Positions 9,623-51,850 of a stretch of 51,850 bases of DNA are shown in pieces (the first letter of the stretch is position 1; each line of letters opens with the position of its first letter). The position numbers and the translations under genes are program-made. The DNA comes from Spirochaetota bacterium (GTDB taxonomy: Bacteria > Spirochaetota > JAGLSM01 > JAKPMW01): NCBI GenBank assembly GCA_031283155.1, contig JAITCI010000085.1:1-51850 (forward strand). The letters are read 5' to 3'. The notes beneath the pieces are model-generated. The model was not told the origin of the DNA. It did not search any database and saw only the letters and a list, made by a program, of their open reading frames with translations.

Positions 9623-11401
9623 ATGGCAAAGAAGATTACGTGGATATATTCACTCATTTTGTTTGCAGTCAGCGTGGTATGCGCTCCTGCGTATCTTCCG
9701 GCCATGCCGCCGCATCCGAGCATCATCAATACTCTCCGCGAGCGGGGCGATAATGCGGGTCTTGCGCGGCTCGGCGCGCGCGCGCAAGCGGAAGCCAGGC
9801 GCAGGATACAGCATCGCAGAGCTTCCCCAATCCAGGGGGAGTACAGGGTACTCGTGATTCTGGTGGAATACAGTGATCGCGTCTTCAGACCCGTTTCAAC
9901 GCCGACTTTTTATTCCCGTCTTTTGAACGGCGCTGCGCCCGGCGCTCTTTCCATGAAAAAATATTACGCCGATATGTCCGGCGGAATCTTTAACATTTCG
10001 ATTGACGTTGTTGGACCGTACAAGGCGTCGGGGACTGCGGTACATTATGGCGCGAATGACAGTGAAGGCAATGATCTCCGACCCGCGACTCTGGTTCGCG
10101 AAGCCGTACTCAAAGCGCAGGCTGCCGGGGTGGATTTTGACCCCTACGACAACGACGATGATGGGTATGTGGATACCGTCATGGTTATACATGACGGTAT
10201 CGGGGAAGAAGTTTCAGACAGGCCAAATGATATTTGGTCGCACGCCTGGGAACTCTCTTCTGGGCAGGGCCACGACGATGGCGACGGACCTGTGGCTATA
10301 GGCTCAAAGACCGTGGACGTCTACTGTATTCAACCGGAGTATACCTTCAGCGCCGGAGACAGCGCGATTGGCGTTTTTTGCCATGAATACGCACATATCC
10401 TGGGCTTGCCGGATATGTATGATACAACGGACGCCACGGCCGGCGCGGGCGATTTCACGATCATGGCCTCGGGCGCGTGGTGCGGACCGGATGACGATGG
10501 TTCGCATCCCACCCCGTTTCTCGCATGGGAAAAGAATATGCTGGGCTGGCTTGCGTACACAACTCCAACCGCCGCGCTTGCCGCTCTCCCCGCTTTCAAA
10601 ACCTCGGTAGTGGCGCTTTCTGCTATTCCTGTGGACAGGCAAGCCTCGCCGGTTGCGCTCTTTGCGGGGCTTCTCGCCGCAGGCGGGCTGGCCTGGTTCG
10701 CGCCGCGAACGCGGCATACCGCCGTTCTCATACTTGTGTTTGCGTTCCTGCTTGGAGCGATGGTTTGGGGTGCGAACTGCGGCGGTTCGGCACCGCATAA
10801 CCCGGGCGGCACTTTATCCTCTGACTCCGGCATTTCCTCTGACTCCGGCGTTTCTGTTTCTTCCGCATCCTCTGATTCTGGCGTTTCTGTTTTTTCCGCA
10901 TCCTCTGTTTCCGGCAGTCCCGTCGTCCCCGGATTTGTCACGCTTGGGGATATTGAAACAACGCGCGAGGCGGTGAAGATTCCTTTGGGGGATCCGGCCG
11001 GGCGGCAATACTACCTTCTTGAAAATAAGGCGGTGAAGAGCGGAACCTGGACGCAGTATTTTCCGGGGAATGGGCTTTTGATTACGCATATCCATGACGG
11101 AGTTATTAACGCCAAAATAGATTTCAATACAGTCAATGACGGCAGGAACAGGATTCACGGTGTTAATGTTGTTGAGGCGGATAATAACAGACGCCTTTGG
11201 ACAAATGCCGACTATGGTACGGCGTCAGATCTCTTCAGAAGCAGGAGTTTTACTCCAGGCACAACGCCCGCGACTTTTTACTATAATGGAACTTCTTCCA
11301 ATAATTGGTCAACCAACGGCACCACTTTGTCCAAAGTGTATATATCCAACATCAGCGCCGCCGGGGCGGTTATGACTTTTGAGTATAAGGTGCAGCAATA
11401 A
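9623..11401 (+). CDS. M6-family metalloprotease with membrane-hairpin insertion, paralogue 1
   Basis: A secreted or membrane-anchored zinc protease of the immune-inhibitor-A-like M6 family. N-terminal signal/anchor (ITWIYSLILFAVSVV), then a conserved AMPPHPSIINTLRERGD segment. Zinc motif HEYAHILGLPDMYD begins at His254, with Met-turn IMASGAW after it, so the site looks intact. After ENMLGWLAY-like sequence the domain is interrupted: hydrophobic segments at ~344-360 and ~366-385 flank PRTRH and end in NCGGS (Cys386), then a Ser-rich linker (387-~436). The domain resumes at ~439 with LGDIETTREAVKIPLGDP and YYLLENK, then GLLITHIHDG. The ATG at 9623 is preceded by GGGAGAGGG. First of three tandem paralogues. 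Confidence 0.88.
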   Translation: MAKKITWIYSLILFAVSVVCAPAYLPAMPPHPSIINTLRERGDNAGLARLGARAQAEARRRIQHRRASPIQGEYRVLVILVEYSDRVFRPVSTPTFYSRLLNGAAPGALSMKKYYADMSGGIFNISIDVVGPYKASGTAVHYGANDSEGNDLRPATLVREAVLKAQAAGVDFDPYDNDDDGYVDTVMVIHDGIGEEVSDRPNDIWSHAWELSSGQGHDDGDGPVAIGSKTVDVYCIQPEYTFSAGDSAIGVFCHEYAHILGLPDMYDTTDATAGAGDFTIMASGAWCGPDDDGSHPTPFLAWEKNMLGWLAYTTPTAALAALPAFKTSVVALSAIPVDRQASPVALFAGLLAAGGLAWFAPRTRHTAVLILVFAFLLGAMVWGANCGGSAPHNPGGTLSSDSGISSDSGVSVSSASSDSGVSVFSASSVSGSPVVPGFVTLGDIETTREAVKIPLGDPAGRQYYLLENKAVKSGTWTQYFPGNGLLITHIHDGVINAKIDFNTVNDGRNRIHGVNVVEADNNRRLWTNADYGTASDLFRSRSFTPGTTPATFYYNGTSSNNWSTNGTTLSKVYISNISAAGAVMTFEYKVQQ

Positions 11402-11456
11402 CCGGCAGGGTGTGCGAGGGCTGGATTTAACCTGAATACGTATCGGGAGGCGGGAT

Positions 11457-13583
11457 ATGGCAGCGAAAAGAGTATGGATATATTTGCTCATCTCTCTCGC
11501 AATCAGTGCGGTATGTATCCCTGTTGCTCTGGCGGCCATGCCGCCGCACCCCGATGTTATAAACTCTCTCCGCGAGCGGGGCGATACAGCCGGGCTTACG
11601 AGGCTCAGCGCCCGCATGGAAGCGGAAGCCAGACGAAGTATGCAGCGCATCACGACTCCAACGAAACCTGTTCAGGGCAATTATAAGGTTTTGTTTATTC
11701 TGATAGATTTTTATGATTACAAGTTTAATGATGTTTCCACTCCGGAATTTTATGCAAACCTCTTAAACGGCACCTCGTCTGACGCCTTCTCCATGAAAAG
11801 ATATTACAGCGATATGTCCGGCGGGGTTCTGCAGCTTACGATGGATGTTTGCGGGCCGTACCGCGCGGCGAATAACAGGGCGTATTACGGCGCAAATAAA
11901 ACCAGTACGCAAGGCAGCGACAGTTTCCCCGCAACGCTGGTTCGCGAGGCCGTCATCGCCGCAGACGCCGACGGGATTGATTTTTCCCCCTATGATATGG
12001 ACGGCGACAATGACGTGGATACCGTTATGATCATCCATGCCGGTCCCGGGGAAGAATCCATAACCACTGACACGGACGCTATATGGTCGAAGGCGTGGGA
12101 TCTCTATTCCGGAAGCTACTACGGCGACGGCGCCGGAAGGTATACGACCGCAAGCGGCAAACGGGTCAATATATTCTGCCTTCAGCCGGAGTTTACCAAA
12201 ACTCCCGGAGACAGCGGGATAGGGGTTTTTTGCCACGAATACGGGCATATCCTCGGCTTACCGGATCTATACGATACAACCTATGCTACGCTCGGCGCGG
12301 GTAATTTTACGCTTATGGCAAATGGCGCATGGGCAGGGAATAAGCCGGGCACAAACCCGCCGGCATGGGATGGCACTTGTCCCGTTCCGCTTCTTGCTTG
12401 GGAAAAGAACAGGCTTGGCTGGCTTGCCTACTCATCACCAGCCGAGCTTGCATTTCTGGATGCTTTCAAAACCACGGTAGTGGCTCAGGGAGCGCTTTCC
12501 GATATTTCCGCCGAACCCATCGCGCGCATTGCGCTCTTTGCGGGTCTCCTGCTTTCGGGCGGATGTATGTGGTTCGCGCCGCGAATGCGCGGCACTGTTT
12601 TGACGCTTGCTCTTGTGTTTCTGCTGGGAATGATGATCGGGGGCGCGAGTTGCAGCGGTACGCCCTTCAGCCCGGGTAGCGCAGCCTCTTCGGCTTCCGG
12701 CGGTACGCTAAGTTCCGCCGACGCGGCGTCCGGCGGCTCTGTTTCTTCGCCGGACTCGAGCGCTGCCGCATCCTCTGTATCCAGCGCTGCCGCATCCTCT
12801 GTATCCAGCGGTGCCGCATCCTCTGTATCCAGCGGTGCCGCATCCTCTGTATCCAGCGGTGCCGCATCCTCTGTATCCAGCGGTGCCGCATCCTCTGCTT
12901 CCGGCGCTGCCGCATCCTCTGCTTCCGGCGCTGCCGCATCCTCTGCATCCGGCACCGCCGCATCCTCTGTATCCAGCGCCGCCGCATCCTCTGTATCCGG
13001 CACCGCCGCATCCTCTGCATCCGGCACCGCCGCATCCTCTGTATCCAGCAGAGCGTCCAGCGCTGCTTCTTCCAGCAGAGCGAGCAGCTCCTCTCTCCCC
13101 GGCATCCTGGTTTCCCTTGGCAATGTTGAGACGACGCGCAAGGCGGTCAAGATACCCCTTGGTGATCCTGCCGACCGGCAGTACTACATTGTTGAAAACA
13201 AGGTGCGCGTAAACGGAACCTGGACCGAGTTTCTCCCCGGTTATTATAATTCTGCGGGACTCCTGATAACGCATATCCATGATGGGGTTATCAGCGCCGG
13301 AATAACAGGCAATACAGTCAATGACGGCGCAAACAGGATTCATGGGGTCAATATTGTGGAGGCAGATGACGGTCGGCATCTTTGGTTAAGCACCAGCGCC
13401 GGAGGTTCCGCTGATTACTTCAAAAACAGAAGTTTTGAGCCCGGCACAACGCCCGCGACTTTTTACTATAATGGAACTTCTTCCAATAGCTGGTCAACCA
13501 ACAGCACCACCTTGTCCAAAGTGTATATATCCAACATCAGCGCAGCCGGATCAACCATGACCTTCCGGTATTCGGTGCAATAG
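11457..13583 (+). CDS. M6-family metalloprotease with membrane-hairpin insertion, paralogue 2
   Basis: Same architecture as its neighbour. Signal/anchor VWIYLLISLAISAVC; zinc motif HEYGHILGLPDLYD from His260; Met-turn LMANGAW. The interrupting hairpin contains PIARIALFAGLL and WFAPRMR, and a second hydrophobic segment ending GASCSGT (Cys399). The linker (~400-550) holds twelve 8-residue repeats of the type GAASSVSS. The catalytic domain resumes at ~552 (SLGNVETTRKAVKIPLGDP). 708 residues. The ATG at 11457 follows GGGAGGCGGGAT. It starts 55 bases after the previous stop, so it is likely co-transcribed. The last ~35 codons are almost identical at DNA level to those of paralogue 1, indicating recent duplication or gene conversion. 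Confidence 0.88.
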   Translation: MAAKRVWIYLLISLAISAVCIPVALAAMPPHPDVINSLRERGDTAGLTRLSARMEAEARRSMQRITTPTKPVQGNYKVLFILIDFYDYKFNDVSTPEFYANLLNGTSSDAFSMKRYYSDMSGGVLQLTMDVCGPYRAANNRAYYGANKTSTQGSDSFPATLVREAVIAADADGIDFSPYDMDGDNDVDTVMIIHAGPGEESITTDTDAIWSKAWDLYSGSYYGDGAGRYTTASGKRVNIFCLQPEFTKTPGDSGIGVFCHEYGHILGLPDLYDTTYATLGAGNFTLMANGAWAGNKPGTNPPAWDGTCPVPLLAWEKNRLGWLAYSSPAELAFLDAFKTTVVAQGALSDISAEPIARIALFAGLLLSGGCMWFAPRMRGTVLTLALVFLLGMMIGGASCSGTPFSPGSAASSASGGTLSSADAASGGSVSSPDSSAAASSVSSAAASSVSSGAASSVSSGAASSVSSGAASSVSSGAASSASGAAASSASGAAASSASGTAASSVSSAAASSVSGTAASSASGTAASSVSSRASSAASSSRASSSSLPGILVSLGNVETTRKAVKIPLGDPADRQYYIVENKVRVNGTWTEFLPGYYNSAGLLITHIHDGVISAGITGNTVNDGANRIHGVNIVEADDGRHLWLSTSAGGSADYFKNRSFEPGTTPATFYYNGTSSNSWSTNSTTLSKVYISNISAAGSTMTFRYSVQ
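12762..13049. repeat. 24-base tandem repeat, 12 units, in the second M6 gene
   Basis: Twelve head-to-tail units of 24 bases (core GCCGCATCCTCTGTATCC) encode AASSVSSG/AASSASGT-type octapeptides. Since the unit is a multiple of three, copy-number change keeps the frame. It is a coding minisatellite, not a CRISPR array: there are no unique spacers. Confidence 0.95.
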
Positions 13584-13670
13584 GAATATTTCTCTTGTAA
13601 TTTTTATTCATGCGCGCCGCAGATCTATGCTAAACTTATCCTAAAGCGAATGCTTACTTGGGGGCGGGAT

Positions 13671-16600
13671 ATGGCGGCAAAAATGAAAAACGTATGGATA
13701 TATCTGCTCATTTTGACCGTAATCGGCGCGGTATGCGCGTCTCGTGATCTTGCGGCCATGCCGCCGCATCCGAGTATTATAGATTCTCTCCGGCAGCGGG
13801 GCGATACCGCAGGGCTGGAGCGAATCAGCGCGCGTATGAAAGCGCAGGCCAGCCGCAGTATACAGCGCGTCACGCCGCCAAAGGGTCCTGTTACGGGTAA
13901 TTACAAGGTTCTTGTGCTTCTGATAGATTATGTGGACAGCCCATTTGCCAACGTATCCACCACAACCTATTATTCCAGCCTCTTAAACGGCACTTCGTCC
14001 GGTGCCTTTTCCATGAAAAGATATTATAACGATATGTCCCATGGTCTTTTGGAGCTTGATATTCGCGTCCATGGACCGTACCATGCGGCGAATGCCAAAG
14101 CGTATTACGGGCAAAACTACCCTTCAGATAGCGATCGCCGTCCCGCGCAGTTGGTCCGCGAAGCTGTACTCGCCGCTCAGACCGGCGGGGTGAATTTCGC
14201 TGACTACGATAATAACAACGACGGAGAAGTGGACGTCGTTATGGTTATACATTCGGGGGCAGGGGAAGAGGTTTCAGGCGATGATGATGATATATGGTCG
14301 CACGCATGGAATCTCACCAGCGGCGGCGCCGGCGCAGTAAGCGTCAATGGCAAAACTGTGAATGTGTACTGCATTCAGCCAGAGTTCACCTTCGGACCCG
14401 GAGACAGCGGGATAGGCGTTTTTTGCCACGAATACGCCCATATTCTTGGTTTACCGGATCTGTACGATACATCGGATGCAACATACGGGGCGGGAATGTT
14501 TACCGTTATGGCCTCCGGTTCGTGGGCAGGTCCAAACGGCGATGGTACGCGTCCTCTCCCGTTCCTCGCATGGGAAAAGAACTTGCTTGGCTGGCTGACT
14601 GTCCAGCTTCCGGACGGAACCCTTGCCATGATGGATACCTTAAGGTCATCGATGCTGGCGCTTTCCGATCATTCCGATCAGCCTACGCCGATTGCGCGTA
14701 TTGCGTTCTTCGCGGGCATTCTGGCTTCGGGCGGACTCTTCTGGTTCTCGCGCCGCAGCCGCACCGCTGCTCTTATGTTTGCCTTCGTGTTTCTGTTCGG
14801 GGTGATGGCCGGAGGGATCAATTGCAGCGGCAGCCCGCCGGATCCGGACGGTACAATATCTGCCGCCGCAGGCAGTTCTCAGTCTGTAGCCGGAAGCGGT
14901 GCAGCGATGAGTTCTCTGTCCGCAACCGGGAGCGGTGAGGCGGCGAGTTCTCCGCCTGCGGCCGGGAGCAGCGAAGCGATGAGTTCTCTGTCCGCAACAG
15001 GGAGCGATGCAGCGATGAGTTCTCAATCCGCAGCTGGGAGCAGCGAAGCGGCGGGTTCTTCATCCGTAGCCGGGAGCAGCGAGGCGGTGAGTTCTCTGCC
15101 CGCAATCGGGAGCAGCGAAGCGGCGGGTTCTTCATCCGTAGCCGGGAGCAGCGAAGCGGCGGGTTCTTCATCCGTAGCCGGGAGCAGCGAAGCGATGAGT
15201 TCTCCGCCCGCAGCCGGGAGCAGCGAGGCGATGAGTTCTCCGCCCGCAGTCAGCAGCGCCGCAGTCAGCAGCGTGGTATCTTCAGCTCCCGGCGGTCTGA
15301 CCGGCGACGCCTACCCCTATTTGTTTACCGGAGCGAGTTTTACCGGAGCGGCGGGCGGCGTCGTTCCCGGTTCGGGAAATATGCTAGGAACACATACTTT
15401 CGACGAAGATGGATACGCAGGTACCTGTATGCGTCTGGTTTATAATGCGAGCGGAAATGGCCTGGTGTATCAATCCCCATCCGGCTCCTTTATAAGTCCG
15501 CGCACCGGTGATAATGCCGTGACCTTCTGGATTGCCGGAACTCTGTCTGCCGGGAATATACGCATCTTTTTAACCGAGAACGGCACTCCAGGAAGCGTAA
15601 ACAAAACATTCAATATAACGAGCGCCGTTCCAACCACTCTGAGCGCTATTACAAATTCAAATTACACAAGCGGTTCCGCTGATTTTACATCCTGGACAAA
15701 AGTTACGCTCTCCTACGAGGCGACGAATCACGCCGGTACAGGAGCATTGCAGATCCGTGTTGGCGCTGTTGGTTCCGGGGTGGCGGGCAGCCGAAAAATT
15801 GATTTGTATATGGATGAGTTTAAGTGGGAAAACCTCTCAGGAGGGGGTACCTCGGCGGCCAGCGCCGCTGCAAGCAGTTCCGCCGTTTCCAGCAGAGCGA
15901 GCAGTGCAGCCGCAAGCAGCGCGGTATCTTCTTCCAGCAAAGCGAGCAGTGCAGCCGCGAGCAACGCGGTATCTTCAGCCTCCGGCACGAGCAGCGTTGT
16001 ATCTTCGGCTCCCGGCAGCTCAGCGGCGAGCGACGCTTATCCTTATTTGTTTACCGGGGCGAGTTTTACCGGAGCGGCGGGCGGTGCCGTTCCCGGATCG
16101 GGAGCCATGTCAGGAACACATACTTTCGACGGAGATGGCTATGCGGGTACGAGTATGCGTCTGGTTTATAATGCGAACGGGAATGGTTTGGTATATCAAT
16201 CCCCATCCGGTTCCTTTATAAGTCCGAGCGTCGGCGATAATGCCGTAACCTTCTGGATTAAGGGCAACCTGACTGCGGGTTCTTTGCGCTTCTTCTTAAC
16301 CACCGACGGGAGCGCATCGGGTACGAATAAAGCGTTCAATATAACGAGCCTTTCTGATACCAATATAACCGCGAGTTCGGATCAGGCTTTCGCAAGCGGC
16401 TCCGCCAATTTCGCATCCTGGACAAAAATTACGCTCTCCTACACGGCGACGAATCACGTCGGTACAGGAGCGCTCCAGATCCGTGTTGGCGGCACCGGCT
16501 CCGCAGCAGGCAGCCGCAACATTAACCTGTGCGTGGATGAGTTTAAGTGGGAAAACCTTTCAGGAGGAGCGAGCAGCGCCGCCGCTTCCAGCAGAGCGAG

Positions 16601-17099
16601 CAGTGCAGCCGCGAGCAGCGCTTCCTCCGTCCAGGCAGTTTCCCTTGGCAATATCGAAACGTCGCACTTGGCGATTAAGATTCCGCTGGGGGATCCGGCC
16701 GGACAGCAATATTACCTTGTTGAAAACAAGGTGAAAGCAAACGGAACATGGACACAGTATTTACCGGGCAGCGGACTCCTGATTACGCATATCCACACCG
16801 GAGTTATCAATGCCATGATGGCAAGTAATAAAGTCAATGACGGCGCAAACAGGATACACGGAGTCAATATTGTGGAGGCGGATAACAAGAGAGATCTCTG
16901 GACGGGTGGCACCGTGGGAGTCGATGCGGATTTCTTCAAAGGCAGGAATTTTAATCCGAGTACAGCCCCCTCAACTTTTTATTATACCGGAACCTCTTCC
17001 GGCGGCTGGCCTGCCGCAGGCACTGCCCCTTCCCGCGTGTACATAGATAACATCAGCGCCGCCGGACCAACCATGACCTTCCAGTATTCGGTGCGGTAA
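13671..17099 (+). CDS. M6-family metalloprotease with membrane-hairpin insertion and two beta-rich modules, paralogue 3
   Basis: Largest of the three at 1142 residues. The ATG at 13671 was chosen over 13650 because it follows GGGGGCGGGAT and aligns with the paralogues (MAAKMKNVWIYLLIL). Zinc motif HEYAHILGLPDLYD begins at His253; Met-turn VMASGSW. The hairpin (PIARIAFFAGILASGG, WFSRRSR) ends in GINCSGS (Cys385). Next: a Ser/Ala/Gly linker of 11-13-residue repeats (~386-540), module 1 (~546-722), a Ser linker, module 2 (~788-964), a Ser linker, and the second half of the protease domain from ~990 (SLGNIETSHLAIKIPLGDP). The modules (DAYPYLFTGASFTGAAGG to DEFKWENLSGG) look like jelly-roll binding domains; no family can be named. 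The downstream DUF362 gene starts 16 bases later. Confidence 0.88.
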   Translation: MAAKMKNVWIYLLILTVIGAVCASRDLAAMPPHPSIIDSLRQRGDTAGLERISARMKAQASRSIQRVTPPKGPVTGNYKVLVLLIDYVDSPFANVSTTTYYSSLLNGTSSGAFSMKRYYNDMSHGLLELDIRVHGPYHAANAKAYYGQNYPSDSDRRPAQLVREAVLAAQTGGVNFADYDNNNDGEVDVVMVIHSGAGEEVSGDDDDIWSHAWNLTSGGAGAVSVNGKTVNVYCIQPEFTFGPGDSGIGVFCHEYAHILGLPDLYDTSDATYGAGMFTVMASGSWAGPNGDGTRPLPFLAWEKNLLGWLTVQLPDGTLAMMDTLRSSMLALSDHSDQPTPIARIAFFAGILASGGLFWFSRRSRTAALMFAFVFLFGVMAGGINCSGSPPDPDGTISAAAGSSQSVAGSGAAMSSLSATGSGEAASSPPAAGSSEAMSSLSATGSDAAMSSQSAAGSSEAAGSSSVAGSSEAVSSLPAIGSSEAAGSSSVAGSSEAAGSSSVAGSSEAMSSPPAAGSSEAMSSPPAVSSAAVSSVVSSAPGGLTGDAYPYLFTGASFTGAAGGVVPGSGNMLGTHTFDEDGYAGTCMRLVYNASGNGLVYQSPSGSFISPRTGDNAVTFWIAGTLSAGNIRIFLTENGTPGSVNKTFNITSAVPTTLSAITNSNYTSGSADFTSWTKVTLSYEATNHAGTGALQIRVGAVGSGVAGSRKIDLYMDEFKWENLSGGGTSAASAAASSSAVSSRASSAAASSAVSSSSKASSAAASNAVSSASGTSSVVSSAPGSSAASDAYPYLFTGASFTGAAGGAVPGSGAMSGTHTFDGDGYAGTSMRLVYNANGNGLVYQSPSGSFISPSVGDNAVTFWIKGNLTAGSLRFFLTTDGSASGTNKAFNITSLSDTNITASSDQAFASGSANFASWTKITLSYTATNHVGTGALQIRVGGTGSAAGSRNINLCVDEFKWENLSGGASSAAASSRASSAAASSASSVQAVSLGNIETSHLAIKIPLGDPAGQQYYLVENKVKANGTWTQYLPGSGLLITHIHTGVINAMMASNKVNDGANRIHGVNIVEADNKRDLWTGGTVGVDADFFKGRNFNPSTAPSTFYYTGTSSGGWPAAGTAPSRVYIDNISAAGPTMTFQYSVR
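14866..15270. repeat. Degenerate 33-39-base coding repeat in the third M6 gene
   Basis: About ten imperfect units encode SSLSATGSGEAA- and SSSVAGSSEAAG-type peptides, with a recurrent GGGAGCAGCGAAGCG core. Neighbouring units differ slightly in length but keep the reading frame. The repeat unit differs from that in the second M6 gene, so the linkers evolved separately. Confidence 0.9.
15303..16560. repeat. Duplicated ~530-base module in the third M6 gene
   Basis: Copy 1 (about 15303-15840) and copy 2 (about 16029-16560) encode ~177-residue modules that share long identical runs (SFTGAAGG, GDNAVTFWI, the segment NGLVYQSPSGSFISP, DEFKWENLSGG). DNA identity is high in the first 220 bases and lower in the middle. 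The copies are separated by a Ser-rich linker, so the module appears to have duplicated together with linker sequence. Confidence 0.92.
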
Positions 17100-17115
17100 T
17101 TTAAGGAGGAACAAT

Positions 17116-25720: not shown

Positions 25721-27592
25721 ATGCGCGGGGATATTTTAGTCCAGGGCGGGATTGTGCTGGACGGTACGGGCGCTCCGGCGCGGCGCGCCGATATACTCAT
25801 CGCCGGGGATACGATCATTTCGCTCGTTCCGCCGCGCAAGCGAGCCTGCGCGCCCGTCATTATCGACGCGCGCGGACGGTATGTCATGCCCGGCATCATC
25901 GACAGCCACACCCATAGCGATCTCGCGCTTCTTGAGGATGAGGGCCTGCGGCCCAAGATTATGCAGGGCGTGACGACCGAGGTTCCCGGGCAATGCGGCC
26001 TTTCCGTATTTCCGCTGCCCCCCGAACGCCGGGAGGGCTGGAGAAAGCGTTCCGTTATCGGCGGCGCGGGGTATACATGGGGGTGGGCGGACGCGGCCTC
26101 CTGGCTTGCGGATTTGGGCGCGCGCGGTCTCGAGACAAATGTTGTTCCATTTGTCGGCGCGGGTACGGTGCGCTATGGTCTTGCGGGGGACGCCGATCAG
26201 GATATCGACTCCGGCCCGGATTCGCCATTCATGCGCGCGCTTGAGGAATCCTTTGCCGCCGGGATCGCCGGGCTCTCTTTCGGGCTGATCTATATTCCCG
26301 CGATCTTCTCCCGCCGCGAGGAGCTGCTTGCGGCGGCAAAATGCGCCGCCCGCCATGATCGCCCGCTTGCGGTACATCTCCGCAGCGAGAGCAATGCGCT
26401 CGCCGCAGCGGTGCGCGAGATCCATGCCCTGGCGGAGGAGAGCGGGGCGCGTCTGACCATATCGCATCTGAAGGTCATCGGGCGCGCGAACCGCAGACAG
26501 CTTGACGATGTTCTGGAGTTTATCGACGCGCATGATATCGCTTTCGACGCCTATCCGTATGGCTACGGAAGCACAACGCTTTTTTCCATCATCCCTCCCT
26601 GGCTCGTCAGCGAAGGCGGGGCGGAGGCTGTTTTGGACAGACTGAACCGGCGCGATGTACGCGAATATCTCGCGGCGCTCTGGACAATGCCTTCGGGGAA
26701 TGCGCGCGTTACAGATCTGAGAAACTTGCGCTCCCGTCGAAAAAGCGCTGAGAATCAGGAAAATATCGGACGCCCTATCCCGGATCATTCTCCAAAATAT
26801 TCCCAAACATTCCACGGTGCCCGGAGCGCTTTCGATAATCTTCCTTTCGAATTGGGCTGGGAGAATATCCGTATAGTGTACGCGCGCAATGCGGAACAGG
26901 AAATATGCGGCAAAACCATAGCGGAGATCGCGCGCGCGCGCGGTACGGATCCGGCGAATGCCGCGATGGATATTCTGGCGGCTTCGCGCGGCGATGTGCG
27001 GATCATCGATGATTTTATGGACGAAGAGGCGGTTATCGCGATCTTGCGCAACAGGCACGGCGTGATTGCGAGCGACGCCCTGTTCGGAGCATCCCCGGCG
27101 GCTGCACACCCGCGCCTGCACTCCTGCTTTCCGTATGCCATGCGCCGCTATGCGCTTGAGCAGAAAATTCTTTCACCGGAAGAGGCGGTATATAAAATGA
27201 CGGGACTGCCTGCGGCTCGGCTTGGGCTGGGTGATCGCGGACGGCTTGCCCTCGGCTATAAGGCGGACATCGCGGTATTTGACGCAGATTTCGGAACCGC
27301 CGCCTGCGCAGCCGCCGATCACGCGGGCGCGGCAAATGGTCTCTATGCGCTTCTTGTCAACGGGCGGATCAAAGTGAACGAATATCAGTACGACCCCGGT
27401 GTGCGCGCGCAGCTAGTACAAGGACGTACTGTTGCAGACAGGATGTCTGCACACAGCGCACGCAGCTGGATGCTGCGGGTTTTGCGCAGTGCATCGCGCA
27501 TTCCCGAAGTATGTACTCCTGCTTCGGGAACGGCGAAGTGCCCTGTGGGTAATGGCGCATCAGTGCGCGCGGGCAGACTTCTTCTGCAATAA
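25721..27592 (+). CDS. N-acyl-D-amino-acid deacylase (D-aminoacylase family) with inserted repeats
   Basis: Amidohydrolase-superfamily enzyme that hydrolyses N-acyl-D-amino acids. Motifs: ILVQGGIVLDGTGAPARRAD, MPGIIDSHTHSD (metal HxH), GVTTEVPGQCG, FSFGLIYIP-like GLSFGLIYIPA, HLRSES, TISHLKVIGR and GVIASDALFG with the catalytic-region Asp. The ATG at 25721 follows AAGGAG. 623 residues versus about 530 usual. One excess block is ~residues 325-370 (from NLRSRRKSAENQENIG). The other, near the C-terminus, is the hairpin repeat at 27416-27568; removing it would restore GVRAGRLLLQ, the usual GxRxGRxL ending. Activity may survive because both blocks are in frame. Confidence 0.88.
   Translation: MRGDILVQGGIVLDGTGAPARRADILIAGDTIISLVPPRKRACAPVIIDARGRYVMPGIIDSHTHSDLALLEDEGLRPKIMQGVTTEVPGQCGLSVFPLPPERREGWRKRSVIGGAGYTWGWADAASWLADLGARGLETNVVPFVGAGTVRYGLAGDADQDIDSGPDSPFMRALEESFAAGIAGLSFGLIYIPAIFSRREELLAAAKCAARHDRPLAVHLRSESNALAAAVREIHALAEESGARLTISHLKVIGRANRRQLDDVLEFIDAHDIAFDAYPYGYGSTTLFSIIPPWLVSEGGAEAVLDRLNRRDVREYLAALWTMPSGNARVTDLRNLRSRRKSAENQENIGRPIPDHSPKYSQTFHGARSAFDNLPFELGWENIRIVYARNAEQEICGKTIAEIARARGTDPANAAMDILAASRGDVRIIDDFMDEEAVIAILRNRHGVIASDALFGASPAAAHPRLHSCFPYAMRRYALEQKILSPEEAVYKMTGLPAARLGLGDRGRLALGYKADIAVFDADFGTAACAAADHAGAANGLYALLVNGRIKVNEYQYDPGVRAQLVQGRTVADRMSAHSARSWMLRVLRSASRIPEVCTPASGTAKCPVGNGASVRAGRLLLQ
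27416..27568 (+). repeat. In-frame hairpin repeat, family 1, copy 1 (in the D-aminoacylase gene)
   Basis: A chain of small hairpins: GTAC-AAGGAC-GTAC (27416-27429), GCAGACA-GGA-TGTCTGC (27434-27450), CGCAGC-TGGAT-GCTGCG (27461-27477), TTCCCGAAG/CTTCGGGAA (27501-27530) and GCGCA-tcag-TGCGC (27555-27568). It encodes LVQGRTVADR, then SAHSARSWMLRVLRSASR, also encoded in frame by comEC. GTGCGCGCG occurs just before (27401) and at the right end (27563), possibly a target duplication. Confidence 0.88.
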
Positions 27593-27608
27593 GCGCAATC
27601 TGCGGCAT

Positions 27609-27625
27609 AAAGGCGGGACGCCTTT
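27609..27625. terminator. GGA-loop hairpin between convergent genes
   Basis: Perfect 7-bp stem AAAGGCG-GGA-CGCCTTT between the D-aminoacylase stop and the convergent small gene. It could terminate either transcript, but there is no long T-run; its GGA loop resembles the loops of the nearby inserted repeats. Confidence 0.45.
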
Positions 27626-27636
27626 GCCCGAATAGC

Positions 27637-27912
27637 TCAGTCTCTTGCGTCCTTGTACTGTTTCAGAAGTTCCTGCCGGCGGTTCAGCCAATACTCATAC
27701 GCCTTGCGTTCCTTTTCCTTGCCGCCGATGCGTGCGTAGCGATAGGCATACAGGTTAGCGAGATGATGCGCGTTGGCGATTTCAGCGGCAAGCCGCTGCT
27801 TGGTCATGGGCTTGTCCTGCTGCGTACCGCCGGTTTGGTGATCCGCCTGCGCGTAGAGTCCGCTCGCCGCAAACAACACGCACATAATCAGTAATGCGAT
27901 TCCTTTTTTCAT
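27637..27912 (-). CDS. Small exported protein of unknown function
   Basis: 91 residues. Signal peptide (MKKGIALLIMCVLFAASGLYAQA) then a charged, helical mature part of ~68 residues (LAAEIANAHHLANLYAYRYA, RKAYEYWLNRRQELLKQYKD). Of two ATGs, 27912 is preferred: GGAGG is 9 bases upstream, against 3 for 27918. No family recognised. It lies 30 bases downstream of the nitroreductase gene on the same strand and may share its transcript. Confidence 0.72.
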   Translation of the reverse strand: MKKGIALLIMCVLFAASGLYAQADHQTGGTQQDKPMTKQRLAAEIANAHHLANLYAYRYARIGGKEKERKAYEYWLNRRQELLKQYKDARD

Positions 27913-27942
27913 GATCATTATCCTCCTGGATTAGCGCGGCAC

Positions 27943-28497
27943 CTATTCCCGGTTATACCGCGCGATTGTATGCAGTTCCTTTCGCTTGTGCGTACCCGGG
28001 AGAGTATACCCCTCCGGCGGGTACCCGAGCGCGAGCAAGCACACAAGATGCTCGTTTTTCGGCACGGTGAGCAGCCTGCGCACCGCATCCACGTCAAACC
28101 ATCCAATATAGCACGATCCGAGCCCCAATTCCTCGGCGCGCAGCACAAGCTGCTGGCACGCGACGCCCAGGTCAAAAAGATAAAACTGAACCCCCTGCAG
28201 AAACGTGCCAATCCTGTTGATCCTAATATCGGTTTTTGCGAGCGCCGCTATAATAACCGGCGCTTCGCGGATGAATTTGCTCGGGAGGTACACGCCTCCG
28301 GTCGCGGCCAGCGCGATTTCATCCCGCAGGGCAGGGTCGTCAATGACATGAAAGCGCCAGAGCTGCGAATTTTGCGCCGACGGCGCGATGCGCGCCGCCT
28401 CGAGACACGCATCGATCACCCCGCGTTCCGGCTGCCGCTTCGCGTAGCGCCGGAGCGAATGTCGCTTGTGAAGAATCTCTTCGACAGGATTTTGCAT
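27943..28497 (-). CDS. Nitroreductase-family flavoprotein
   Basis: 184 residues of the FMN-dependent nitroreductase fold. N-terminal RHSLRRYAKRQ is the FMN-phosphate-binding motif (usual RRSxRxF); ARIAPSAQNSQLWRF and the C-terminal ELGLGSCYIGWFD and LLALGYPPEG also match. Substrate unknown. The start at 28497 gives MQNPVEEILHKRHSLRRY; an ATG at 28524 would add nine residues. Neither has a strong ribosome binding site. Divergent from comEC, with 67 bases between the starts. Confidence 0.9.
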   Translation of the reverse strand: MQNPVEEILHKRHSLRRYAKRQPERGVIDACLEAARIAPSAQNSQLWRFHVIDDPALRDEIALAATGGVYLPSKFIREAPVIIAALAKTDIRINRIGTFLQGVQFYLFDLGVACQQLVLRAEELGLGSCYIGWFDVDAVRRLLTVPKNEHLVCLLALGYPPEGYTLPGTHKRKELHTIARYNRE

Positions 28498-28564
28498 GGC
28501 AATCCATAGTACACCATTTTGCAAAAAAAGCGAACCCGAAACGTGCGCTCGGCTTTTCTATTTT

Positions 28565-30508
28565 ATGAAAGCAAGCATACGTTTATGGGCGGTCTTTGCC
28601 GCCGTCATTACTTCCGTCGTGTTCACGCGCGCCGGAATTTCAGCCGGATATATATTTCTGTTCGCCGCGCCCCTCGCCGGCGCAGCGTGTATTCGGAAAA
28701 ATTTGCCGGAAAAATGCCTGGTACAAGGATGTACTGTTGCAGACAGGACGCGCAGCGCGCAAGGCGAGTCTGCACACAGCGCACGCAGCTGGATGCTGCG
28801 GGTTTTGCGCAGTGCATCGCGCAGCGCCACGGATGGCGCGGTAGTGCGCGGGAAGATAATTCTGTTTTGCCGCGTCTATACGCTCGCCCTGATCGCGATA
28901 ACAATCGTCCGGCTGCTTGCGCAGCCATCCCCGCAGCAGGATCCGAAGCAGGCGTGCTGGCTTGCGCAGGAATGTTACGGGCGCGTGACGCGGATCGCGC
29001 AGAACAATAAACGGACCCGCCTGCATCTGCAACTGGACGGCGCTCTGCTTGTGGATGGGCGGCACCGGAAGCTGCGCGGCGAGATAATCGCGTACCTGCG
29101 ACCTGGATGGGATACCCATTCGGGCACAGGTCATCCCGCGCGAGCCACGGAGGGCTCAAAAAGCGCGGGGCTGCGCAATACGCAAACCAATGCGCTTCCC
29201 GCAGTTGATGAGCGCGTCGCCGTCACGGGCGAGCTTCAGGAACTCCCGCAGGGAGAGGGAAGACTGCGACCTGGATGGGATACCCATTCGGGCACAGGTC
29301 GTCCCGCGCGAGCCACGGACGCGGAGCGCGCAGAGCGAGGCTCAAAAAGCGCGGGGAACAGTTTCTGGGATTATCTTGAGGACGCCCAGGTGCGCGCGGT
29401 TATCTGGGAGGTCCGCTCCCTGCGTGTGCTCGCCCCGGCACCCGAAATGACGCGGCGGCTCGCGAGCCTGCGTACCGCGCTCATGGATTATTTCAATCCA
29501 CTTGGCGAGCGCGCGAAGGCGCTGATGGGGGCGCTTGTTTTCGGTGAGCGCGGCGGACTCACGCGCGAGGAGCGGCAGGAATTTGCCGACGCCGGAATCA
29601 TCCACATGATGGCGGTCTCGGGAATGCACGTCGGCGTGGTTTGCGCGGCAATCTACGGGCTCTTCTCGCTCCTGGGCGTTGGCCGCCGTATCGCGCTCCC
29701 GCTGGTTTGCCTGCTCCTGTTTGTGTACGCGGGACTCTGCAACTGGACGCCATCGGTTTTGCGCGCGGTATTCAGCGTGTACGTATTCGCGGCGCTCTCG
29801 TATTTTCGCGCGCGCACCTCCGCGATGGACATATTGATTATGGTTGCAAGTATTCTGCTTTTCTTCTCGCCCGCATTGATACGGAGCGCGGGCTTCCTCC
29901 TGTCCTTTGCCGCTACGGCGGGCATCCTTCTGTTTGCCGCTCCCTTGTCGGAATGGATGCGCTTTCTCCGGCTTCCGAAATTTGCGGGTAATTCCCTCGC
30001 GGTTTCGCTCGCGGCGCAGATTGCGGTCGCGCCGATACTGGCGGCCTGTTTTGGGCGGATATCGATCCTCGCGCCGCTTGTGAATTGCCTGCTTGTCCCG
30101 CTCATCCTGTGTATTCAGGGTCTGGGCTGCGCGCTGCCCCTGCTTGCGCGTCTCCCGGGCGGGGAATACGCTGTGCTTTTCTTTCAGGCGGTAGTGGGTT
30201 TCCTCTTCGATTCTGTTTCCTGGATCAGCGCGCTCCCGATAGCGGCGATAGACGTGCCGCGCTATTCCCTCGCGGTGGTTTTGGGCTATTATCTAGGCAT
30301 ACTGCTTATCGCCGGGGGGCTGCGGATTCTTGGCATACGACGCCGAAAAAATAGAGAGCTTGCTCTCGCCGCGCAGCTTGCAGGCCTTCTTGCGCGCACG
30401 GGGGCTGCGTCCGAGGCACGGGATGGGGCAGAATTTTCTGGTCAGCCGCCAGATACTCACGCGCATAACCGAGAGCGCGGAGATTCGCGCCGGGGAAGAG
30501 CTGCTTGA
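28565..30508 (+). CDS. comEC: ComEC/Rec2-type DNA-uptake channel protein with in-frame repeat insertions
   Basis: Inner-membrane channel for single-stranded DNA in natural transformation. The competence domain is clear: LMGALVFGERGGLTREERQE, FADAGIIHMMAVSGMHVGVV, FVYAGLCNWTPSVLRA and roughly ten hydrophobic helices to ~residue 590. No C-terminal metallo-beta-lactamase domain. The N-terminal region (DUF4131-like, ~30-250) is invaded by three in-frame hairpin repeats: family 1 at 28721-28850 and family 2 at 29096-29170 and 29264-29356. No good ribosome binding site precedes the ATG at 28565. The last ~60 codons run out of frame into rsmA (179 bases). Whether the channel still works is uncertain. 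Confidence 0.87.
   Translation: MKASIRLWAVFAAVITSVVFTRAGISAGYIFLFAAPLAGAACIRKNLPEKCLVQGCTVADRTRSAQGESAHSARSWMLRVLRSASRSATDGAVVRGKIILFCRVYTLALIAITIVRLLAQPSPQQDPKQACWLAQECYGRVTRIAQNNKRTRLHLQLDGALLVDGRHRKLRGEIIAYLRPGWDTHSGTGHPARATEGSKSAGLRNTQTNALPAVDERVAVTGELQELPQGEGRLRPGWDTHSGTGRPARATDAERAERGSKSAGNSFWDYLEDAQVRAVIWEVRSLRVLAPAPEMTRRLASLRTALMDYFNPLGERAKALMGALVFGERGGLTREERQEFADAGIIHMMAVSGMHVGVVCAAIYGLFSLLGVGRRIALPLVCLLLFVYAGLCNWTPSVLRAVFSVYVFAALSYFRARTSAMDILIMVASILLFFSPALIRSAGFLLSFAATAGILLFAAPLSEWMRFLRLPKFAGNSLAVSLAAQIAVAPILAACFGRISILAPLVNCLLVPLILCIQGLGCALPLLARLPGGEYAVLFFQAVVGFLFDSVSWISALPIAAIDVPRYSLAVVLGYYLGILLIAGGLRILGIRRRKNRELALAAQLAGLLARTGAASEARDGAEFSGQPPDTHAHNRERGDSRRGRAA
28721..28850 (+). repeat. 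In-frame hairpin repeat, family 1, copy 2 (in comEC)
   Basis: Shares GTACAAGGAYGTACTGTTGC and the following hairpins with the copy at 27416, in the same reading frame (SAHSARSWMLRVLRSASR). The stem GCAGAC/GTCTGC (28739-28744 and 28768-28773) is kept, but its loop is 23 bases rather than 5: an 18-base module has been added after GGA. The right end is GCGCC-ACGGAT-GGCGC (28824-28839) instead of the longer hairpin set in copy 1. Confidence 0.9.
29096..29170 (+). repeat. In-frame hairpin repeat, family 2, copy A (in comEC)
   Basis: 75 bases. Left hairpin ACCTG..TGGG-ata-CCCA..CAGGT, right hairpin GAGCC-ACGGAG-GGCTC, then AAAAAGCGCGGGG. Encodes LRPGWDTHSGTGHPARATEG. Near-identical to copy B apart from an 18-base loop expansion there. 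Confidence 0.9.
29264..29356 (+). repeat. In-frame hairpin repeat, family 2, copy B (in comEC)
   Basis: 93 bases, 18 longer than copy A. The stem GAGCC/GGCTC (29310-29314 and 29339-29343) is kept while its loop grows from 6 to 24 bases by a module starting GGACGCGGAGCGCGCA, nearly the same as that in family 1 copy 2. Frame is kept (LRPGWDTHSGTGRPARATDA). Confidence 0.9.
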
Positions 30509-50308: not shown

Positions 50309-51850
50309 ATGGTGAATTCTGAAGATCGGTATTTTTGGGAAAACCCGGAGATGGAATCGTATCTACAGCTGGATTCGCTTGCGCAGTACGCAAGTATTCC
50401 GCTCCCGGATGCGCTCAATACGCAAGCGAGACTTAATCCTGAACTGCTCAAGCTGTCCGCATCGATCAGGCTGCCTGCGCCGGCTAAACTGCCCACTCTT
50501 ATTGAACGGAACGAAGTGGTTTACGATGCGCAAGCGAAGCTCAAGCCTCCCGTCGGGCAGCCGGATACGCAGGCGAAGGCAGAGCCTGTACCGATCCAGC
50601 CGCCTGTGCCCCTTTCGCCGATGGATACGCAGGCGAAGCTCAAGCCTCCCGCCGGGCAGCAGGCAGAGTCTGCGCCGATCCAGCCGACTGTGCCCCTTTC
50701 GCCGATTAACGCGCAAGCGACGCCGGACGCCGTATCGCTTAAGCCGCCCATACTTATTGAGCGGAGCGAGGTAATTTACGATACGCAAGCGAAGCCGGAC
50801 GCCGTATTGCCTCTGCCGCCCGCTCCCATTGCATGGAACGAGCCGAACCCCGAGCCGCCCATACTTATTGAGCGGAGCGAAGTGGTTTACGATACGCAAG
50901 CGAAGCCGGACGCCGTATTGCCCCTGCCGCCTGTTCCAATTGCATGGAACGAGCCGAACCCCGAGCCGCCCATTGAGCGGGAGAGGAACGAAACGCGGGC
51001 GGCAAGCGCGAATACAAATGCCTTGGACGCCCAATTACTTCAGGCCATATCTCTCGCAAAAACGGGAGATACAAAAAAAGCCGGACAAGCCTTTGCAAAA
51101 CTGATTCCATGTCTGGCCGGTAAAACTTCCATCCTGCGTTTGGCTCTTCCATGTCTGTACCATGCGCGCGAGCTGGACGCTTTGAAAATGCTGATTGCTT
51201 CCGTTTCGGCGGATTCTTCTCCGGGAGGCAGAACCTTGCTGCGTGATCTCATCCGGGATGTATACGCTGATGAGGAGTACGGAATAATCGCGGAACTCTA
51301 TGACGCTGCATTGCCATTGCGCGCCGGCTTCGATCACGACGATTGGTACCGCTTCTGCATTGCGCTTGCTTATTTCGAACGCGAAGAGGAAGCCCGCGCG
51401 GCCTGTATGCAGTCGCTTGGGCTTAACGAAATGCCTGCATCCTGGGCGTCCTGCATCGATATTTTATGCGCTTCCGGGCGGGCGGATAAGGCGATTTATC
51501 CGCTTGCAGCGCAGAATGTTCTGGCTCGCAGCGATCCGCAGACATGTCTTGATTACTGCGCCGCTTTGCCTTCCTCCGCTATGGGGTCGCGGCTCTGTTT
51601 GGTTAAGGCGCGTTGTCTCATGCTGGCAGGTTCCCATCATGAGGCGCTTGCGCTCCTCGAAAAGCTGAATTATGATGCTAAGGTGTGCGGAGAAAAGCAG
51701 TATCTTGAAGGGTGTATTCATTTTTATGGCGGAAGAAAGAAAGAGGCATACGACTGCTTCAGGAAAGCGTCCGAATCCGGATTTTATGAAAAAAATTGCT
51801 GGCGTTTTTTGGGAGATATAAGCACCGAAGAAGGAGAGCATGAGCAGGCG
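50309..51850 (+). CDS. Pro-rich repeat protein with helical (TPR-like) C-terminal region, incomplete
   Basis: Open from the ATG at 50309 (GGGGCGGA 6 bases upstream) to the window edge, 514 codons, no stop. Residues ~1-235 are a Pro/Ala/Gln-rich tract with repeats of the type LIERSEVVYDTQAKPDAV and PAPIAWNEPNPEPP; two adjacent units of 37 residues (111 bases, from 50752) are nearly identical, and a shorter relative begins near 50489. Residues ~240-514 are helical with TPR-like spacing (LLQAISLAKTGDTKKAGQAF, YRFCIALAYFEREEEARAAC, RCLMLAGSHHEALALLEKL, CIHFYGGRKKEAYDCF). No signal peptide or membrane helix is visible. Probably a cytoplasmic scaffold; family unknown. Confidence 0.75.
   Translation, partial: MVNSEDRYFWENPEMESYLQLDSLAQYASIPLPDALNTQARLNPELLKLSASIRLPAPAKLPTLIERNEVVYDAQAKLKPPVGQPDTQAKAEPVPIQPPVPLSPMDTQAKLKPPAGQQAESAPIQPTVPLSPINAQATPDAVSLKPPILIERSEVIYDTQAKPDAVLPLPPAPIAWNEPNPEPPILIERSEVVYDTQAKPDAVLPLPPVPIAWNEPNPEPPIERERNETRAASANTNALDAQLLQAISLAKTGDTKKAGQAFAKLIPCLAGKTSILRLALPCLYHARELDALKMLIASVSADSSPGGRTLLRDLIRDVYADEEYGIIAELYDAALPLRAGFDHDDWYRFCIALAYFEREEEARAACMQSLGLNEMPASWASCIDILCASGRADKAIYPLAAQNVLARSDPQTCLDYCAALPSSAMGSRLCLVKARCLMLAGSHHEALALLEKLNYDAKVCGEKQYLEGCIHFYGGRKKEAYDCFRKASESGFYEKNCWRFLGDISTEEGEHEQA

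Follow-up and report, generated by a model that had tools for sequence, protein, structure and literature searches.

Two unrelated genes of the window, that is, the whole stretch of 51,850 nucleotides analysed here, which lies on contig C81 of a draft genome of 2.5 Mb (89 contigs, 94% complete), are interrupted in frame by short hairpin-forming sequences. The first encodes an amidohydrolase of the D-aminoacylase type and carries one composite insert, with the following features:

25721-27592, forward strand: host gene 1, amidohydrolase of D-aminoacylase type (ORF; Pfam Amidohydro_3, PF07969, E=3.4e-27)
about 27413-27571, forward strand: composite insert, in frame (absent from the homologue in G001, the one genome of the same genus compared; flank geometry)
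27415-27430, forward strand: hairpin H1, AGTACAAGGACGTACT, with an ANGGAN loop (hairpin reading and folding)
27433-27451, forward strand: hairpin TGCAGACAGGATGTCTGCA, with a GGA loop and an 8 bp stem (folding)
27456-27487, forward strand: bulged hairpin H2 (MFE structure)
27501-27530, reverse strand: further module, a TTCCCGAAG...CTTCGGGAA hairpin with its GGA antisense (other copies in the genome)
27532-27554, forward strand: mini-element GGCGAAGTGCCCTGTGGGTAATG, which at other loci lies within GGA loops and interrupts them

The second gene, comEC, carries three inserts:

28496-30508, forward strand: host gene 2, comEC, with three in-frame inserts (Pfam Competence, PF03772, E=3.5e-55)
about 28718-28850, forward strand: composite insert 1 (repeat match to host gene 1; comparison with the G001 homologue)
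28721-28734, forward strand: H1 of insert 1, GTACAAGGATGTAC, the exact CsrA SELEX consensus RUACARGGAUGU
28779-28810, forward strand: bulged hairpin H2 of insert 1, identical to 27456-27487 (repeat match and folding)
28818-28850, forward strand: second bulged hairpin of insert 1, CGCGCA[GCGCCACGGATGGCGC]GGTAG TGCGCG (folding)
29096-29170, forward strand: insert 2, RPGWDTHSGTGHPARATEGSKSAG (98% copy at 29264-29319; G001 comparison; fold z=-5.2)
29264-29358, forward strand: insert 3, a second copy of the insert 2 module with its loop interrupted (repeat match; G001 comparison)

An initial annotation of this DNA had described a single hairpin-built repeat, placed in the same reading frame in both genes. 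The two genes do share such a sequence: 27445-27500 and 28768-28823 are identical over 56 nt, and a second stretch (27413-27443 and 28718-28748, 31 nt) matches at 94%. The positions then given are essentially right, the composites spanning about 27413-27571 and 28718-28850, and inserts 2 and 3 of comEC come in addition to those it listed. The reading frame of the copies is identical in the 25721-27592 and 28496-30508 ORFs, which alone is weak evidence because the shared stretch is open in two of the three forward frames. Folding supports the proposed chain of several mini-hairpins. The MFE structure of 27456-27487 has a basal stem GCGCA / TGCGC, an apical hairpin CGCAGC-TGGAT-GCTGCG and a 5-nt bulge, GGTTT, on the 3' side, and insert 2 includes CCCGCGC[GAGCC-ACGGAG-GGCTC]AAAAA GCGCGGG, in which the basal stem has a bulge of AAAAA. 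Composite insert 1 of comEC, taken whole, folds no better than its shuffles (z -0.8).

The D-aminoacylase insert is bracketed by copies of GTGCGCGCG at 27401 and 27563, whose spacing of 162 nt is exactly 54 codons, and the homologue in G001 ends in ...ERGAGRLALEGVTG and lacks the insert. The spacing is consistent with the idea that excision restores a normal GVRAGRLLLQ end. A 9-nt repeat lies on both sides of this insert and is also similar to the element's own end. The G001 homologue of comEC lacks all three inserts, so that same-genus homologues of both genes are without them and speak against native segments of the two proteins. A further segment of the D-aminoacylase (26680-26840), about 47 residues longer than in G001, is not clearly repeat-like and gives one weak 26-nt match.

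Architecture and genomic distribution of the unit

A nucleotide search of the genome returned 50 partial matches on many contigs, so that the further copies expected by the initial annotation do exist; as different sub-segments of the insert are matched across contigs, the sequence is a mosaic. Hairpins and inserts were then sampled in 824 kb of stretches, about one third of the genome, with genes called by a simple home-made caller. The loci read display short hairpins with differing stems and one loop (GTACANGGATGTAC, GAACAGGATGTTC, GCGACATGGATGTCGC, GCAACAGGATGTTGC, AAAACAGGATGTTTT and others). What had been taken for one element is one as regards the composite shared by the two genes, but it belongs to a modular family whose members have more in common in architecture than in sequence.

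In the unit, about 55-60 nt long, H1 is followed by a linker of 2-6 nt and by a basal stem that bears H2 and has a 3'-side bulge of about 4-6 nt. At each apex the loop is A(N)GGAN with a closing C-G pair, on a stem that differs almost freely. The inserts of the window are composites of these H1 and H2 modules, that of comEC consisting of an H1 followed by two bulged H2 hairpins. A covariance model of the units based on MAFFT was dropped, because the alignments put the basal arms in the wrong places, and a stem/loop descriptor with controls was used in its place. When each stem must have at least 4 bp and both hairpins lie on one strand, there are 31 twin units, among which 26 H1 and 18 H2 sequences are distinct; none is found with any of eight other triplets in the loop, nor in any of three shuffles. 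A perfect basal stem of at least 5 bp is present in 8 of the 31, whereas permutation of the 3' flanks gives 1.9 on average and at most 5; many other twin units, read by eye, have basal stems of the type CCC-GA-GC / GC-GA-GGG, with tandem G-A oppositions. The feature overlooked in the initial annotation is precisely that the A(N)GGAN loop hardly varies while its stem changes freely, and that the hairpins come in pairs, as in CsrA-binding RNAs.

The loop preference is also seen when hairpins are counted singly. The pattern TACANGGATGTA occurs 62 times in the genome and its reversed form 0 times, and strict GGA hairpins number 116 in the 824 kb (8 when shuffled, 0 when reversed), which extrapolates to several hundred genome-wide. 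Where CA(N)GGATG cores were picked regardless of stems, the flanking four to five positions pair in about 38-52% of cases (falling to 32% at the fifth), a rate that for most control cores is about 25% and not raised. Among intergenic hairpins with a stem of at least 6, GGA-type loops are the commonest class, and most copies of the hairpin element are intergenic.

Some loci hold three to six GGA hairpins in tandem, with the look of a miniature array of CsrB type (L036:3403-3563; L025:1359-1600). At others, a second mini-element, CGAAGTRCCCTGTGGGTA, repeatedly interrupts GGA loops between GG and ATG (L073:5806-6054, L011, L013), i.e., it is nested in the loops of other units.

Insertions within genes and positions between them

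In-frame inserts are found in further genes of the sampled third of the genome, among them ileS, prmC, murT and a xanthine-dehydrogenase-like gene. In isoleucyl-tRNA synthetase (L064:19314-20000, G000:C63), one unit adds 18 residues in frame with respect to the T. thermophilus enzyme (1ile); the alignment of PrmC to HemK stops where the insert begins, and in MurT an alignment gap against chain 7q8e_A coincides with the insert. Less firm cases are the xanthine-dehydrogenase-like protein, an alpha/beta-hydrolase-like protein and a 551-aa protein, the latter two named by motif reading only. The coding strand carries the GGA in prmC and for most loops of the D-aminoacylase and comEC; in ileS, the xanthine-dehydrogenase-like gene and other genes the GGA lies antisense to its host. 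The cleanest single insertion is that of a 59-nt unit (59 mod 3 = 2), antisense, which splits an FGE-sulfatase gene (L036:9899-10599, G000:C37) between RLPTEAE, upstream, and WEHACRAGT. The downstream half begins at position 118 of the PF03781 profile, the upstream 48 residues searched alone gave no match, and no clear target-site duplication is seen. Judging from the mixed orientation in genes and from this split gene, insertion seems to take place at the DNA level with no preference for a strand, the reading frame acting as a filter.

The units are thus inserted in frame, and inserts in enzymes such as IleRS show directly that a structured nucleic acid can add protein segments without killing the gene, which does not imply that the segments are useful. 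Rickettsia palindromic elements are dispersed palindromes found between and inside genes, in frame in unrelated genes that include essential ones. The initial annotation had proposed that the inserts work like them, and the likeness, which is one of behavior, extends to dispersed palindromic copies, placed in frame in unrelated and essential genes and missing from relatives. Other genes are also hit in frame, but most copies sit outside genes. The Rickettsia elements belong to another phylum, and the units described here are built of mini-hairpin modules in which the GGA loop hardly varies and the stem changes freely. That interpretation as a whole is partly supported.

Between genes, the loci are concentrated in convergent spacers (25 in 16.9 kb) as compared with divergent ones (11 in 28.9 kb). 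The strand of the GGA relative to the neighboring gene is mixed overall and about equal away from gene ends, whereas within 30 bp of gene ends 22 are sense and 7 antisense. In ten cases a sense H1 is built onto the last bases of the upstream stop codon (TAG, TAA or TGA), at offsets of -2 to -4, against three antisense; all ten have a matching 3' arm, and seven start at exactly -2, against none antisense. The same register recurs in G001 (TAG, TGA) and in G175, from another family (TAA). The position of sense H1 on stop codons favors an RNA-level role near translation ends, and an insertion seeking CTAG could contribute to it. Strand bias as a proof of RNA function was rejected: there is none overall, only near gene ends and stop codons.

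Recurrence in the phylum and proposed relation to CsrA

In 295 further genomes from this phylum, the pattern GGATGT-(12-40 nt)-ACA(N)GGATGT gave 315 matches against 43 for the reversed control, and at least four matches in 22 genomes against 1 control genome. Units of G001, G041, G026, G054 and G195 have unrelated stems in the same order, H1 / basal(H2, 3' bulge), and the architecture recurs under different sequences in further families of spirochaetes. G026 also contains repeated twin units between tandem paralogous long ORFs (C1:389001-405000, L107; 2170001-2190000, L109). In G164, a Treponema-like genome of 2.84 Mb from the same phylum, loci match the Rfam TD-2 RNA at 65-95 bits, over the cut-off; TD-2, a Treponema family, has two C-ANGGAN-G hairpins in its consensus. 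On the strength of these TD-2 matches and of the initial annotation, the phylum is taken as Spirochaetota. An array of G001 (L241) aligns over the full length of RsmW at 36.7 of 52 bits, under the cut-off (E 0.003-0.01). In the host genome, Rfam found nothing but a tRNA in the window and no match among the units; none of these reached the cut-off of a clan CL00106 family, and the window and the other loci fall under that of RF03162 (TD-2). Since its copies miss the Rfam cut-offs, we leave them outside those families.

The host genome has a single csrA gene, with LSRK and YRKE segments and adjoined by fliW, although nearly all genomes of the phylum (95 of 100) have csrA, so that its presence is non-discriminating. 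One report quotes RUACARGGAUGU as the recognition sequence of CsrA/RsmA, its GGA lying in the loop of a hairpin; it describes how the CsrA of Leptospira binds a GGA hexaloop, an interaction that is lost when GGA is changed to AAA, and gives the flaB leaders as the Leptospira CsrA targets with published physical binding (PMC8668096). According to another, CsrA-site hairpins are generally paired because CsrA is a homodimer, and the TwoAYGGAY RNA, in which the loops are paired and a stem contains tandem GA, is a proposed CsrA binder (PMC4333381). On the basis of the CsrA-type loop with its C-G closure, the binding of GGA in Leptospira and the presence of csrA, we hold the units to be modules of CsrA-binding type.

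The reading that we favor, with moderate confidence, is that of a dispersed, modular, insertion-prone palindromic repeat, whose unit is a twin hairpin of CsrA-binding type and which would supply putative CsrA sites or a sponge. We infer both the binding of CsrA to the units and the existence of a mover. Units do enter protein genes in frame in either orientation, and their stems change while loops and architecture stay. In such a model, the host protein would acquire a tolerated extra segment. Transcribed units would bind CsrA as RNA, the hairpin pair fitting one CsrA dimer, so as to form local sites at gene ends and, collectively, a distributed sponge. The mRNAs of the D-aminoacylase and comEC would display such hairpins, because most of their GGA loops are on the coding strand. 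More tentatively, and with the odds somewhat against it, a mobile CsrA-binding twin hairpin could scatter sites onto stop codons and into ORFs, the regulator being rewired and titrated throughout the phylum, and repeatedly.

Alternative explanations and comparison with known systems

The units might instead be a selfish palindromic repeat acting at the DNA level (REP/MITE/RPE-like), with the GGA loop read by a transposase or nuclease in single-stranded DNA hairpins and the likeness to CsrA sites incidental. The dispersed copies of mixed orientation, their in-frame insertion both ways, the lone unit that splits the FGE-sulfatase gene and the mini-element nested in another unit's loop all agree with this. 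In REPs, however, the foot and stem are what is read, whereas here the stems vary almost freely and the CsrA consensus loop is kept in many families of the phylum; the sense register of H1 on stop codons also speaks against it. A Y1/RAYT transposase (PF01797), the sole transposase class directly searched, gave 0 matches in this 94% complete genome, against matches in 5 control genomes, and was rejected as the mover. Weighing the mixed orientation away from gene ends together with the lack of Y1/RAYT, we regard a DNA-only repeat as rather unlikely, but as deserving serious consideration. REP/BIME systems with RAYT share with the units their hundreds of short intergenic palindromes, mosaic combinations and bias to the 3' sides of genes, and differ in having that transposase family and in lacking a constant loop on free stems.

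Ordinary 3'-end hairpins, serving as mRNA stabilizers or terminators and spreading passively, would account for the enrichment between convergent genes relative to spacer length, but not for the strong GGA bias of the loops or the insertions within genes, and no T-runs follow the hairpins at the listed loci; we find this explanation improbable. Native lineage-specific protein segments, alike by chance or gene conversion, would be in frame in both genes, as the inserts are, but can hardly be credited when the G001 homologues lack them and the same modules are intergenic on other contigs and strands.

Among known CsrA-type RNAs, the two C-ANGGAN-G hairpins of TD-2 (RF03162; compare TD-1, RF03155) resemble those of the putative CsrA-binding units, but TD-2 has its own middle GAGUUU hairpin and a more fixed sequence, and the host units fail its model. 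TwoAYGGAY (RF01731) has two ANGGAN-type loops, as the units do, and tandem GA pairs in one stem, which recall the CCC-GA-GC / GC-GA-GGG basal stems frequent here; nevertheless, the host units score nothing in RF01731, and the available portion of the source gives no in-gene repeat for TwoAYGGAY (PMC4333381). CsrB/RsmZ/RsmW sRNAs (clan CL00106) are arrays of GGA hairpins, several A(N)GGAN loops on free stems being a feature of the host units as well, and it is to RsmW that array L241 aligns; those RNAs come from one dedicated sRNA gene, whereas the units are scattered genome-wide and within ORFs, below the Rfam cut-off. In-frame palindromic gene repeats and paired GGA hairpins of CsrA type are thus each known, and we found no link between them. 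Should CsrA bind the units, the repeat would act genome-wide as a distributed sponge and give rise to new regulatory sites; it would also offer a large natural set of ligands for spirochaete CsrA and a proposed function for TD-2.

Other repetitive sequences were seen beside these units. A separate dispersed repeat has the ends GCAATCCA / TGGATTGCTTCG / CGCAATGACG (L032:2409-2580, L038:2438-2557, L050:6916-6999), and a run of 33 G near a contig start (L041:71-104, G000:C63) is an assembly artefact or a slippage tract. In the window, the regions 9631-17100 and 50309-51850 contain long ORFs with internal repeats of 24-, 36- and 111-nt periods, one of them with a peptidase M6 domain.
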